Below, in pieces: positions 1,712 through 14,274 of a stretch of 26,677 nt of DNA. Position 1 is the first letter of the stretch. Every line of letters begins with the position of its first letter. Under the pieces are notes generated by a model. It saw only the letters and a list, made by a program, of their open reading frames with translations, was not told the origin of the DNA and ran no database searches. The stretch is taken from IMG/VR virus record IMGVR_UViG_3300048121_000720, positions 1 through 26,677 of that record. One strand, 5' to 3'. The DNA comes from a virus. The translations under genes were made by a program, and so were the position numbers.

Positions 1712-2401
1712 TTAGTGCATGGGGTAGACGATGACCTGAACCGCTGGATCGGCACAGGCGGTACATGAGCCACACTTGGCGTTGCCTGCGACCGCAGGGC
1801 ATACCTTGGCGCTGATACCTTGATCATGCAAGGATCGCACGAAGGTGATCGCCTGCGAGCTATGGGCGCGCTTGTTTTTGCCACGTGCCAGCTTGTCACC
1901 CTTGATCGCGCATGAAGCCACGTGACCCGCGTTGAGAACCTTTGGCAGGTTTTGCACATTGGATGCGACCGAAACCCGTGGCATGAACCCTGCATCCTTG
2001 AGGGTATCGGCTTTGCCCAAGGTTTCCGTAGGGAAATGGACCCTTGAATGATCCAAGGATCCCGCGATTGTCTTCAGCGCTGAGCGCTCATGGTCATCTA
2101 GAACCGCAGGGATCGAACCGAAGGCGGCAAAGCGCACCCATGGTGCACCCGCGAGCTTTGCGAGCGCCTTGGGCTTCGTGAGCGCGCTCAGGTAGGCGCC
2201 TATGCTTGATTCCTTGCGCTCAAGGTTGATCGTGATCGATGGCTTCATGGCTTCGGTGGTGATGGCATAGCATCCATTGCCCTTGAGTGGACACGAGTCA
2301 TCGCAGTGCTTGCCACCCGATGTGGTGAAATTGACGGTTACTGATCCGCTGATCCCTTTGCCATAGGATCCGATTAGAGTGCCAAAGGTCTTGTCTTGCA
2401 T
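1712..2401 (-). CDS. GP88-like cysteine-rich phage protein, function unknown
   Basis: A 229-residue protein. The start at 2401 is chosen because AAGGGG precedes it at 8 bases; an upstream in-frame Met at 2452 has no such support and would extend into the control region. The N-terminal part has SYGKGISGSVTVNF followed by C33, C37 and C44 (C-x3-C-x6-C, ending CYA). The C-terminus has C201, C210, C213 and C216 (C-x8-C-x2-C-x2-C) before a final VYPMH. This layout is like phage GP88-type proteins, whose function is not established. The Cys spacing suggests a bound metal or iron-sulfur centre, perhaps a distant radical-SAM relative, but the canonical CxxxCxxC motif is absent. It is the first gene of the leftward operon, so it is probably expressed early. 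Confidence 0.75.
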   Translation of the reverse strand: MQDKTFGTLIGSYGKGISGSVTVNFTTSGGKHCDDSCPLKGNGCYAITTEAMKPSITINLERKESSIGAYLSALTKPKALAKLAGAPWVRFAAFGSIPAVLDDHERSALKTIAGSLDHSRVHFPTETLGKADTLKDAGFMPRVSVASNVQNLPKVLNAGHVASCAIKGDKLARGKNKRAHSSQAITFVRSLHDQGISAKVCPAVAGNAKCGSCTACADPAVQVIVYPMH

Positions 2402-2515
2402 GTGTATAACCCCTTGTGGTTGAGGGCACCACCGTGGCACCCATGCCCACACTATGCAGGATCCGTGCCAAGTGCCAAAAGCATCACTTTTGAAGACAAA
2501 GGTATTCAGTTTTAC

Positions 2516-2596: not shown

Positions 2597-2750
2597 TGTG
2601 GATAACTCAAGGGTTCTGTGGATAACTATTCAGGCTGTGGATAACTTGGGATAACGTAGGTGGTCCAATGGGGACCTACACTGACCCTCACATGTTATCC
2701 CCACGTTATCCACAACCCCTTGAGTGTACCTGTGTGTAACCTGTGGATAA
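2597..2750. repeat. DnaA-box cluster (five perfect 9-mers)
   Basis: TGTGGATAA, the complement of the consensus DnaA box TTATCCACA, occurs at 2597-2605, 2617-2625, 2636-2644 and 2742-2750. TTATCCACA itself occurs at 2706-2714. A one-mismatch copy (TTATCCCCA) lies at 2695-2703 and a two-mismatch copy at 2646-2654. Four copies share the longer 12-mer CTGTGGATAACT. Start-to-start spacings of 20, 19, 10 and 11 bases are near multiples of the helical turn. By simple counting, about 0.2 perfect boxes would be expected by chance in the whole window on both strands. The cluster is therefore functional sequence, most likely a DnaA- or iteron-dependent origin. Confidence 0.85.
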
Positions 2751-2781: not shown

Positions 2782-2829
2782 GGGTACACGGGGGGGTGGG
2801 AAGCCTGGAGTGTATTCTCATGTGTACCC
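2782..2829. repeat. Inverted repeat GGGTACAC / GTGTACCC
   Basis: Perfect 8-base arms at 2782-2789 and 2822-2829 flank a 32-base spacer that contains a run of seven G. A related TGTACC half-site occurs near 2725. It sits between the DnaA boxes and the 10-bp tandem repeats. It could be an operator pair or a structural element of the origin; it is not followed by a T-tract, so it is not a terminator. Confidence 0.5.
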
Positions 2830-2880: not shown

Positions 2881-2920
2881 CTCAAGTAATTCTCAAGCCT
2901 TCTCAAGCCCTCTCAAGCAC
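2881..2920. repeat. Four tandem 10-bp repeats (TCTCAAGC type)
   Basis: Units CTCAAGTAAT, TCTCAAGCCT, TCTCAAGCCC and TCTCAAGCAC follow each other at exactly 10-base steps, sharing CTCAAG. They lie between the DnaA boxes and the AT-rich stretch, where origin-specific recognition or unwinding repeats are found in bacterial and plasmid origins. A short CTTAGG/CCTAAG hairpin at 2862-2876 precedes them. Confidence 0.7.
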
Positions 2921-3029
2921 CATTAAGTTATTGATTTCTTTGATTAAACTTATGTATTCGATAGATTTTATCAATAGGTTAATTAGGGACAGATTAGTGT
3001 TGTAAAAAAGTAACAACTAAAGAAAACTC
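2921..3029. other. AT-rich segment, candidate unwinding element of an origin
   Basis: GC content is 16/60 in 2941-3000 and 16/60 in 3001-3060, against roughly half in neighbouring DNA. With the adjacent phased repeats and DnaA boxes, the order box cluster - tandem repeats - AT-rich stretch matches the architecture of DnaA-dependent origins. No gene of plausible length and ribosome site is present anywhere in 2402-3204. Confidence 0.55.
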
Positions 3030-3058
3030 TTGACAACTCAGGATTTTTGTGCTATAAT
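3030..3058 (+). promoter_or_regulatory. Consensus sigma70 promoter for the terminase/portal operon
   Basis: TTGACA (3030-3035), a 17-base spacer and TATAAT (3053-3058), with TG one base before the -10 (extended -10). This is a perfect match to the E. coli-type consensus. Transcription should start near 3065 and run into terS and downstream genes. Its edge position in the candidate origin makes coupling of replication and late transcription possible. Confidence 0.9.
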
Positions 3059-3064
3059 TATAAG

Positions 3065-3204
3065 TATATAAAGACACAAACACGAGAAACCATATAACAC
3101 CTAGTGAGATAATTCTTTGGTTAGTAATCTTTATGAACACTAACCTAAATATACAAACTCGTGTATAGCCTTAAGTTGCCCCTTAAGAGAACTAAGAGAG
3201 ATTT
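3065..3204 (+). promoter_or_regulatory. Structured 5' leader of terS
   Basis: The expected leader is about 140 bases, much longer than the other two promoters' leaders. It holds nested inverted repeats: outer ACACGAG (3080-3086) with CTCGTGT (3158-3164), and inner GGTTAGT (3119-3125) with ACTAACC (3139-3145). An 11-codon ATG frame starts in the inner loop at 3133 and ends at the outer arm. CCTTAAG is repeated at 3169 and 3181. A translational or antitermination control element is possible. Confidence 0.45.
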
Positions 3205-3585
3205 ATGTCTGAAGAAAAAAGAAAAATTGGAAGACCTCCTAAGAATGAGTTGTCTGCCAATACTAAACGAAATGCTGTAGGTCGCCCTAAAGGTGATGCT
3301 GCAATCATTAATGAATATAAAGCTAGGATGTTGTCTAGCCCTAAGTCAAGGAAGGTCTTAGATGCCATCTTTGATGCAGCTCTAGATAACGAACATAAGA
3401 ACCAAGCTGCTGCTTGGAAATTGGTTGTCGATCGTATTCTTCCCGTGTCTGCCTTTGAGCAGGACATAGTTAAGCAAGGTGGTAGGTCTGCTATACAGAT
3501 CAACATTACTGGTTTAGGAGCGAGCGTTACCGAGGAGCCTGAGATCGTTGAGGATGTGACTGACGTGGAGATCAAAGATGAGTGA
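3205..3585 (+). CDS. terS: Terminase small subunit
   Basis: A 126-residue protein directly before, and overlapping by 8 bases, the large terminase gene, which is the standard position and size for the DNA-recognition subunit of the packaging motor. It starts MSEEKRKIGRPPKNE and carries two GRP-type basic motifs (GRPPK at about 9-13 and GRPKGD at about 27-32) resembling AT-hook cores. The middle is helical (KARMLSSPKSRKVLDAIFDAAL) and the tail is acidic. It would bind the packaging start site and feed DNA to the large subunit. The ATG is preceded only by a weak AAGAGAG site. Assignment rests on context plus remembered resemblance to small terminases of T7-like and marine podoviruses. Confidence 0.8.
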   Translation: MSEEKRKIGRPPKNELSANTKRNAVGRPKGDAAIINEYKARMLSSPKSRKVLDAIFDAALDNEHKNQAAAWKLVVDRILPVSAFEQDIVKQGGRSAIQINITGLGASVTEEPEIVEDVTDVEIKDE

Positions 3586-4831
3586 CCTTAACATCCAACT
3601 GCTCCCTTGGCAACAAGAGGTCTGGAACGACAAGCACCGATTTAAGGTCGTTGCTGCAGGTCGTCGTACAGGCAAGTCTCGCTTAGCAGCCTATTTGTTG
3701 ATCCTTAATGCTCTACAGACAGACAAAGGCCACGTATTTTACGTAGCGCCTACACAAGGGCAGGCACGGGACATTATGTGGCAAACGCTACTTGAGGTTG
3801 GTCATTCGGTCATCTCAGGTTCACACATAAACAACTTACAAGTTAAACTTGTGAACGGAGCCAAAATTAGTCTTAAGGGTGCTGATAGACCTGAGACCAT
3901 GCGCGGTGTGTCGTTGAAGTTTTTGGTAATGGACGAATATGCGGACATGAAGCCTGAGGTCTGGGAACAGATCTTACGTCCTGCATTGGCTGACCAAAAG
4001 GGTTCTGCGTTATTCATTGGTACACCTATGGGTAGGAATCATTTTTATGATCTCTACCAGCACGGTCTAAAAAATGAAGATCCAACCTTTGCGTCATTCC
4101 ATTTTACTTCATTTGACAATCCATTGTTGGACCCTAATGAGATCGAAGCTGCCAAGAAGAGTATGTCTTCCTTTAGTTTCCGTCAGGAATTCATGGCATC
4201 CTTTGAAGCTCAGGGTGGTGAACTGTTTAAAGAAGAATGGATTAAATTCGATGAAGATGAACCTGACGATGGTGATTATTATATTGCTATCGACTTGGCC
4301 GGTTTTGAAGATGAGGGAGCTACAGGCGTTAAGAATAAACGACTGGACAGTACAGCAATCTCTGTCGTTAAGGTGAATGACAAAGGCTGGTACGTTAAAG
4401 AGATTATCTACGGTCGTTGGGACGTTAAGAAAACAGCACAGAAGATCTTCAATGCCGTCAAAGACTATGAACCAAATGCTGTCGGTATCGAGAAAGGCAT
4501 TGCTCGTCAAGCTGTTATGCCTTACCTTTCTGACATCATGCGCCGTACACAAACCTTCTTTAGAGTCGATGAGCTGTCTCATGGAAACAAAAAGAAAACA
4601 GACAGGGTTGTCTGGGCACTGCAGGGTAGATTTGAGAATGGATACGTTACGTTGAACAAGGGCGAGTGGAACAACGAGTTTTTGGACCAGTTGTTTCAGT
4701 TTCCCAACAAGCTGGTGCATGATGACTTAATTGACTCGTTATCGTACATCGAACAATTAGCCAAGGTTTCTTATGTTGCTGACTTTGAGGAAGACGACTG
4801 GGAACCTATGGATACTGTAGCAGGATGGTAA
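3578..4831 (+). CDS. terL: Terminase large subunit (packaging ATPase/nuclease)
   Basis: A 417-residue motor protein that pumps DNA into the procapsid and cuts concatemers. Walker A is AGRRTGKS (27-34), Walker B FLVMDE (115-120) and the coupling motif GTP (148-150). The RNase H-like nuclease half shows Asp in YYIAIDLAG (D239), Glu in AVGIEKG (E305) and Asp residues in HDDLIDSLSY (D382, D383, D386), so both active sites are intact. It is short for a large terminase but contains both domains. The ATG follows GGAG at 7 bases inside terS. Confidence 0.95.
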   Translation: MSDLNIQLLPWQQEVWNDKHRFKVVAAGRRTGKSRLAAYLLILNALQTDKGHVFYVAPTQGQARDIMWQTLLEVGHSVISGSHINNLQVKLVNGAKISLKGADRPETMRGVSLKFLVMDEYADMKPEVWEQILRPALADQKGSALFIGTPMGRNHFYDLYQHGLKNEDPTFASFHFTSFDNPLLDPNEIEAAKKSMSSFSFRQEFMASFEAQGGELFKEEWIKFDEDEPDDGDYYIAIDLAGFEDEGATGVKNKRLDSTAISVVKVNDKGWYVKEIIYGRWDVKKTAQKIFNAVKDYEPNAVGIEKGIARQAVMPYLSDIMRRTQTFFRVDELSHGNKKKTDRVVWALQGRFENGYVTLNKGEWNNEFLDQLFQFPNKLVHDDLIDSLSYIEQLAKVSYVADFEEDDWEPMDTVAGW

Positions 4832-13067: not shown

Positions 13068-14107
13068 GTTCTTTAGCAACAAACGTCATCACCGATGCTA
13101 GTGGTGGCAACACAACCACCATCAACGGGTACACCCCAACCGTGTCTAACATGGCTGGCAGGAATCTTATCATCAACGGAGATATGCGGATTGCACAGCG
13201 TGGAACGAGTGCGACATTTAGCAACGGCACTAATAATTATTTGGTTTCCGACAGGTGGCTTTTCAGCGAAGGGGGCACAGAGCCTTTTGTGTTTGCAGTA
13301 AGCCAAAGCACGGACGCCCCCTCTGGTTTTTCAAATTCTCTTAAGTTAGATTGCACTACGACAGCGGCATCGCCAGCGTCTTCGTCTTCTGCTTCTTTTG
13401 AGCAAAAAATTGAAGCACAAGACTTACAGCAGCTATCCTTTGGAACAAGTGGCGCGAAGTCTTTGACGCTTTCATTTTGGGTTAAGTCAAGTAAAACAGG
13501 GACTTATATCGTTTGGTTTTATCAAGACGATGCCACACGGTCTGTGTCGGCTGCCTACACAATATCTTCTGCAAACACTTGGGAGCATAAAACCATTGTA
13601 ATTGATGGTGATGCTTCTGGGCAAATAGACCTAGACAATGGCTCTGGGTTTAGGGTTCGATTTGTCCTTCTTGCTGGAACAACTTTTACCTCTGGAACAC
13701 TACAAACTTCTTGGGGTTCTTCAAATAATCTTGCAGACCGCTATGTTGGTCAGGTAAACTTGGCTGATAGCACAGACAACGATTGGTATCTCACAGGCGT
13801 ACAACTCGAAGTCGGCAGTGTAGCCACTCCTTTTGAGCATCGTCCGTATGGGCAGGAGTTGGCGTTGTGTCAGCGGTATTATGAAGTTGGGAGCATCTAT
13901 TCGTCAATAAATGGTGCAGGCGTGTATAGAGAATTTTTTAAGTATAGCGTAGTAAAGAGAGCATTGGCGACAATCACAACAAGTACAACGCCTTCTGTAA
14001 CTAACGGTGGTTTAACTGATTATACATACGGATTTGACATATATCAAAACGGCTTAACGGCAAATGGTGCTGTTGTTGGTACGGTGATAGCTAACGCGGA
14101 GTTGTAA
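13064..14107 (+). CDS. Tail fibre / receptor-binding protein
   Basis: A 347-residue protein. It carries NLIINGDMRIAQRGTS near residues 34-49, a widely shared start of a phage beta-sandwich domain thought to bind carbohydrate. It later has YLTGVQLEVGSVATPFEHRP and the motif ELALCQRYYEVG that closes this module. The C-terminal 70 residues are variable-looking and may form the receptor contact. It overlaps the chaperone-like gene by ATGA with GGAGG upstream. In related phages such ends exchange often. The host receptor is unknown. Confidence 0.78.
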   Translation: MSSLATNVITDASGGNTTTINGYTPTVSNMAGRNLIINGDMRIAQRGTSATFSNGTNNYLVSDRWLFSEGGTEPFVFAVSQSTDAPSGFSNSLKLDCTTTAASPASSSSASFEQKIEAQDLQQLSFGTSGAKSLTLSFWVKSSKTGTYIVWFYQDDATRSVSAAYTISSANTWEHKTIVIDGDASGQIDLDNGSGFRVRFVLLAGTTFTSGTLQTSWGSSNNLADRYVGQVNLADSTDNDWYLTGVQLEVGSVATPFEHRPYGQELALCQRYYEVGSIYSSINGAGVYREFFKYSVVKRALATITTSTTPSVTNGGLTDYTYGFDIYQNGLTANGAVVGTVIANAEL

Positions 14108-14109
14108 TT

Positions 14110-14274
14110 ATGTATATACAGTTTTTAACAGAAAACGGAACTTTAGCTAACGGTGTTATACGTGAAAAGGACAACGCCTTCATCCCATTCGACCATGCCA
14201 ACACAGATTACCAAGAGTACCTGAAGTGGCTGGAAGAGGGTAACACACCAGAACCTGCTGACCCTGTGGAGTAA
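14110..14274 (+). CDS. Small tail fibre-associated protein (54 aa)
   Basis: A 54-residue frame beginning MYIQFLTENGTLANGV and ending with DYQEYLKWLEEGNTPEPADP. The C-terminal block is common in small proteins or domains next to phage fibres and assembly chaperones. The start lies 2 bases after the fibre stop, with GGAG about 9 bases upstream, and the stop is 3 bases before the next ATG. It may be a stand-alone fibre-assembly domain. Its short length makes it easy to overlook. Confidence 0.7.
   Translation: MYIQFLTENGTLANGVIREKDNAFIPFDHANTDYQEYLKWLEEGNTPEPADPVE

Follow-up and report, generated by a model that had tools for sequence, protein, structure and literature searches.

Replication in T7-type phages is the textbook example of replication that is independent of the host initiator. 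The classic case of a phage that does use host DnaA for replication is bacteriophage P1, whose oriR combines DnaA boxes with RepA iterons; P1 uses oriR in its plasmid prophage state and together with its own RepA.

In phages of Alphaproteobacteria, clusters of sites for the host regulator CtrA are found in terminal repeats and gap regions, where they evolved independently in several groups; DnaA sites were not clustered in the phages of that study (PMC9437464). Our search of the openly accessible literature turned up no account of DnaA-box arrays beside terminases or inside phage terminal repeats. Within it, a lytic phage was mentioned in a single case, an Ori-Finder prediction for Pseudomonas phage PseuGes_254 (PMC11512268).

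The DNA analysed here (the window, a stretch of 26,677 bp) comes from an uncultured podovirus-type phage and is a fragment without genome ends. Its large terminase subunit (TerL), portal and capsid proteins share less than 60% identity with those of cultured phages, its close relatives are all uncultured, and a near-identity search of the window among cultured phages gave nothing. A search with TerL in bacterial and archaeal genomes hit only viral-looking contigs, which sat in MAG bins of unrelated phyla. No sign of lysogeny was seen in the family members examined.

The box array and its surroundings

Eight DnaA boxes, five perfect and three variant, lie within 154 bp of the window. The perfect box reads TTATCCACA or TGTGGATAA, depending on the strand.

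2597-2605, minus strand: perfect DnaA box in the context CTGTGGATAACTC
2617-2625, minus strand: perfect DnaA box in the context CTGTGGATAACTA
2636-2644, minus strand: perfect DnaA box in the context CTGTGGATAACTT
2646-2654, minus strand: weak box TTGGGATAA, 7/9 (2 mismatches), 10 bp from the 2636 box
2695-2703, plus strand: near-perfect box TTATCCCCA with 1 mismatch, left-hand member of a double box (gap of 2 bp)
2706-2714, plus strand: perfect DnaA box, right-hand partner of 2695 in that double box
2731-2739, minus strand: variant box TGTGTGTAA, 7/9, paired with 2742 across a gap of 2 bp
2742-2750, minus strand: perfect DnaA box in the context CTGTGGATAACTC

The first-pass annotation had placed perfect boxes at 2597, 2617, 2636, 2706 and 2742 and had noticed no other perfect copy in the window; a pattern search over the whole 26,677-bp IMG/VR record returned exactly these five copies of TTATCCACA. 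Its estimate of about 0.2 boxes expected by chance agrees with the 0.21 per window computed from composition, and the 12-mer that it described as common to four copies was recovered in four (CTGTGGATAACT). The probability of five perfect boxes in a given 154 bp is about 1.6e-17, and the reversed control motif has no match in the window. Of the two variants it had listed, the one at 2695 stands as a one-mismatch half of a double box, while the one at 2646 is present but weak, with two mismatches. The 7/9 box at 2731-2739 and a lone one-mismatch site at 2401 had been overlooked. The offset from 2731-2739 to the box at 2742 is exactly 11 bp in the same orientation, and the two double boxes with a 2-bp gap (2695/2706 and 2731/2742) take in two of the five perfect boxes; a partner matching at least 7/9 at a distance of 11-12 bp is found at 0.55% of random positions. 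The boxes are thus arranged as phased singles and doubles, a layout that would permit cooperative binding of DnaA.

To the left of the array the genes are on the minus strand, and the array sits between divergent units. The surrounding features are the following.

1712-2452, minus strand: DUF7227-type gene, start codon uncertain, reading away from the array on its other side
2790-2801, plus strand: G tract
2922-3199: AT-rich, least stable stretch near the array, candidate unwinding and/or promoter region
3030-3058, plus strand: sigma-70 promoter TTGACA-17-TATAAT, 12/12, kept in relatives
3205-3585, plus strand: presumed small terminase gene, named by its position before TerL, with a weak AT-hook
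3578-4831, plus strand: large terminase subunit

Rightward on the plus strand, the small terminase (presumed, since the 3205-3585 product had no family match) and the large terminase are followed by genes for portal, capsid and tail, and the far end of the window holds a gene for ribonucleotide reductase. The AT-rich stretch begins about 170 bp beyond the last box and contains the promoter, and the 50-mer from 2922 is the third least stable of the window. The family as a whole has a mean AT content of 0.63-0.67 at 50-400 bp to the right of the array, and in relatives, with or without boxes, the array position is likewise followed by a G-rich tract. In one relative, the homologue of the DUF7227-type gene matches GP88/phrog_1392. 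Genes of this GP88/phrog_1392/DUF7227 type adjoin the array in the window's family, and phrog_1392 was also matched by 5 of the 100 proteins near arrays in other lineages.

Recurrence, exchange and genome ends

Relatives of TerL were gathered without regard to boxes, and 66 of them had enough upstream DNA. At least two clustered perfect boxes were found upstream of TerL in 17/66 of these loci and a significant cluster of perfect or one-mismatch boxes in 19/66; most of the others had zero or one site. In the combined sets, 57 of 106 distinct related loci had at least two perfect boxes, and up to 11, upstream of the terminase, a number that, unlike the unselected TerL scan of 66 loci, includes loci picked by their box pattern. 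Among 2.9 million viral contigs, two copies of CTGTGGATAAC within 2-30 bp were found at no fewer than 117 loci, and 44 of the 117 listed belong to the window's family; by the match table, the array adjoins TerS/TerL in those 44.

Within the family the array comes and goes. At least 12 gains or losses were counted on the TerL tree. One locus with seven perfect boxes (L064) has a TerL identical to that of two loci with none (L066 and L070). A further locus, L008 at 91% identity, is also without the array. In L066 and L070 its place is taken by a different short repeat, ATGCCAACT/GTGCCAACT, at spacings of 66, 77 and 103 or 77, 103 and 138 bp. This is an exchange of the whole array. Other short repeats occupy this position in box-less sisters, some of them at helical spacing. 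Such exchangeability speaks for an assisting or regulatory role more than for an indispensable origin, except if phages without boxes rely on another factor or another host. Conservation of the boxes, which the first-pass annotation had named as a check, was found in part: the intergenic place is the same in the 57 loci, but the boxes themselves have been gained and lost repeatedly.

Further repeats and clusters were observed at individual loci. The ATGCCAACT/GTGCCAACT repeat lies about 1450-1300 bp upstream of TerL in L066 and L070, occurs in L062 as well, and is followed by the same G-rich tract. In one subgroup (L041, L044, L088 and L057), CTTAAGTAT/ATACTTAAG motifs are repeated between the promoter and TerS. 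The box-less locus L042 has dense GTGCGTGTG repeats from about 1946 bp upstream of TerL, with 11 further copies within 120 bp. A second cluster with three perfect boxes is present in relative G014 (34103-34207; 14103-14207 of locus L212), about 2 kb from its main seven-box array on the early-gene side.

Arrays were also found in phages outside the family. Among 100 near-array proteins from such phages, phrog_2 was matched by 18, phrog_38 by 11, phrog_9 by 6 and small-subunit families by 6, and no terminase family was among those listed for 73 proteins farther from arrays. In a second set, collected by a triple-box pattern, terminases again came first (phrog_2 in 15/80), and RecE-like and replication-initiation proteins were found as well; many loci in both sets are mutually related, and their counts are not independent. 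Several microviruses, which are single-stranded DNA phages, also matched the array (H81, H88, H94, H98, H101 and H106).

Three cultured T7-like phages carry the array inside their direct terminal repeats: phiEap-1 (repeat of 195 bp, 5 perfect boxes), Shigella phage A7, or VB_Ship_A7 (177 bp, 4 perfect boxes plus variants at 11-12 bp), and Kp7 (238 bp, 5 perfect boxes and 2 variants). The corresponding intervals are KT321314 71-174, MK685668 22-147 and ON148527 63-222 (loci L241, L242 and L243). Escherichia phage P483 carries an array too. The terminal repeats of T7, T3, SP6, KP34, phiKMV and K1F have no boxes. In the window's own family, the contig end repeats of two relatives (146 bp in G013 and 221 bp in G014) contain the array, which hints that it is located at a terminus here as well. 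Overall, the distance of arrays to contig ends showed no significant bias.

The pattern is far more widespread than the first-pass annotation implied. It had called direct use or titration of host DnaA by a tailed phage unusual, which is too strong for an array that recurs in many phages. The recurrence beside the packaging genes of many unrelated phages suggests, as far as site patterns can tell, that phages often borrow or intercept host DnaA.

Host DnaA and the possible roles of the array

In the family, spacings between boxes of the same orientation peak at 11, 22 and 33 bp and have shoulders 1 bp further on, at 12, 23 and 34 bp; with near-copies collapsed to 36 groups, the best period was 10.75 bp (Rayleigh statistic 54). 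The box pairs to which E. coli DnaA chiefly binds have a gap of 2 or 3 bp, and binding drops when a base pair is added (PMC11317965). In the collection of 2.9 million viral contigs, triple boxes at steps of 11-12 bp occurred in at least 120 contigs and those at steps of 16-17 bp in 2; the reversed motif occurred in none. A chance origin of the array was rejected on these collection-wide controls together with the composition statistics.

Host DnaA is very probably the protein that binds the array. That the boxes are genuine sites for it, as first supposed, is borne out by spacing and flanks that match those of E. coli, by the same location in relatives and by a cumulative GC-skew minimum at or near the array in most complete relatives. 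The shared 12-mer had been taken to leave room for a phage initiator that mimics DnaA sites. Such a phage-encoded initiator or regulator, merely resembling DnaA in specificity, could be thought of because the 12-mer exceeds the 9-bp box and iteron-like direct repeats are often bound by a replicon's own Rep protein. Yet one box of E. coli oriC has the context CTGTGGATAACTC and datA is written gagTTATCCACAg; the 12-mer context is thus present at E. coli's own DnaA sites and is no argument for a mimic. Moreover, the motif is common to unrelated phages, the spacing is that of DnaA, and no protein cluster confined to box-bearing genomes was found. This reading is largely disfavoured, and we consider it very improbable.

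The replication genes of the relatives bear on what bound DnaA might do. Relative G013 has a replication module with a T7-type primase-helicase, a PolA-type polymerase, an exonuclease and an endonuclease; for G014 the identified proteins are a primase-helicase, PolA and ThyX. The G013 primase-helicase is split over two overlapping frames (L209 4474-5301 and 5093-6136), possibly by a frameshift or an assembly error; at the corresponding place G010 has a single frame of 556 aa. Sixteen records, namely the window, 14 relatives and the T7-like Shigella phage A7 (G022), which is outside the window's family, were searched for RNA polymerase and DnaA. A single-subunit RNA polymerase was found in A7 but in neither the window nor the 14 relatives, and a DnaA domain in none of the 16 records. 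The relatives also have no recognisable initiator.

The most likely single role of the array, with chances that we would call nearly even, is that of a DnaA-dependent or DnaA-assisted replication start. Host DnaA would assemble on the boxes and strain or open the AT-rich stretch to the right, at about 2920-3200. A self-loading phage helicase, or host DnaB, would then enter, and the forks would exit through the divergent early and late modules. Occupancy by DnaA, opening, helicase entry and origin activity are all inferred. In favour of such an origin are the strongly AT-rich stretch beside the array and a family that has a T7-type replisome but no RNA polymerase, dnaA gene or recognisable initiator. 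The first-pass view of a bacterial-style origin also gains from the detrended cumulative GC skew: its minimum lies 10-160 bp from the array in G010, G013, G014 and G003, at 0.2-0.5 kb in G005 and G012, and at 2 kb in G011. Six of these seven box-bearing complete or near-complete relatives have it at the array or close by. However, this signal is confounded with the divergent gene orientation, and the box-less G001 and G002 have their minimum in the same intergenic region. Against an origin, the AT-rich stretch is on the side opposite to that predicted by box orientation, the array has been gained and lost repeatedly on the TerL tree, and T7-like phages with their own RNA polymerase carry it too. 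DnaA-trio motifs showed no excess over shuffles beside 89 outermost boxes, a weak test because even the R1 box of E. coli reaches no more than 2 on this scale.

A different possibility, unlikely but to be taken seriously, is that the array intercepts DnaA, binding it or switching its ATP and ADP forms and thereby restraining host initiation or sensing the growth state, and is not an origin. The E. coli datA locus lowers active DnaA with five boxes (PMC4585315), the same number as in the window. The location in the terminal repeat gives T7-like phages two copies per genome, and patchy gain and loss suits an accessory role. Five boxes per genome are, however, few compared with the DnaA pool of the cell until the phage has replicated, and titration leaves the fixed place at the terminase or terminus, the same throughout the family, unexplained. 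Alternatively, bound DnaA could be a roadblock or architectural factor for end duplication, end processing or the choice of the packaging site, which we regard as rather unlikely. The array would then be one version of the short-repeat arrays at phage genome ends, in line with its position inside the terminal repeats of phiEap-1, A7 and Kp7 and the contig end repeats of G013 and G014, with the terminases that neighbour arrays in other lineages (phrog_2 for 18/100 near proteins, none listed among the 73 far ones) and with the other short repeats that box-less sisters hold at the same place. But unrelated terminase families would not have one recognition sequence, and TTATCCACA points to a host protein; the box-free terminal repeats of T7, T3, SP6, KP34, phiKMV and K1F and the missing overall bias toward contig ends also argue against it. 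Finally, host DnaA could act as a transcription factor that times the early (leftward) or late (rightward) units. The array does separate divergent units, a perfect sigma-70 promoter lies about 280 bp to its right, and phages place host CtrA sites in terminal repeats and gap regions (PMC9437464). Yet the boxes do not overlap this strong rightward promoter, a search beside the array showed no good leftward one, and arrays of up to 10-11 boxes exceed the norm for promoters. We therefore consider this role improbable.

Taken together, phased arrays for host DnaA at the terminase or terminus could be a widespread convergent device of lytic podophages that ties replication start or end processing to the host initiator, exchanged in sister lineages for other short-repeat arrays that maybe serve a different host factor. 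We propose this tentatively, as somewhat doubtful. How T7-type replisomes of this sort start would be answered by an uncultured podophage family that has oriC-grade DnaA arrays but not the T7 RNA polymerase. The question is testable now, since cultured phages of Escherichia, Shigella, Enterobacter and Klebsiella have the same arrays in their terminal repeats. Use or interception of DnaA would couple phage growth to the cell cycle of the host, a link that has been proposed for CtrA in phages of Alphaproteobacteria.

Comparison with known systems

To judge from its letters, the array resembles an oriC or datA cluster in site sequence and spacing. With E. coli oriC and chromosomal clusters it shares the extended flank CTGTGGATAAC, often CTGTGGATAACTC, double boxes with 2-3 bp gaps, mixed box orientations and an AT-rich stretch in the vicinity. 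In contrast to the five perfect boxes of the phage array, the 801 bp around oriC contain two. Unlike oriC, the array has no detected trio, a displaced AT-rich stretch and no dnaA/dnaN/mioC context, and a phage helicase would replace the host loading pathway. The datA locus, which like DARS is a further point of comparison in E. coli, also has five boxes and influences the activity of DnaA from a place outside oriC (PMC4585315). The phage array differs from datA in being phage-borne, helically phased in the family and tied in its position to the terminase.

Compared with P1 oriR, the array comes without a Rep protein and, in the members examined, without any sign of lysogeny. The terminal repeats of phiEap-1, VB_Ship_A7 and Kp7 contain the same 11-mer in phased arrays of 4-7 boxes; these phages have their own RNA polymerase, and in them the array is proven to lie inside the terminal repeat, whereas the window is a fragment without ends. 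By analogy, the placement of CtrA sites appears to be the nearest conceptual relative of the array: there, sites for a different host cell-cycle regulator are concentrated at phage ends or gap regions.
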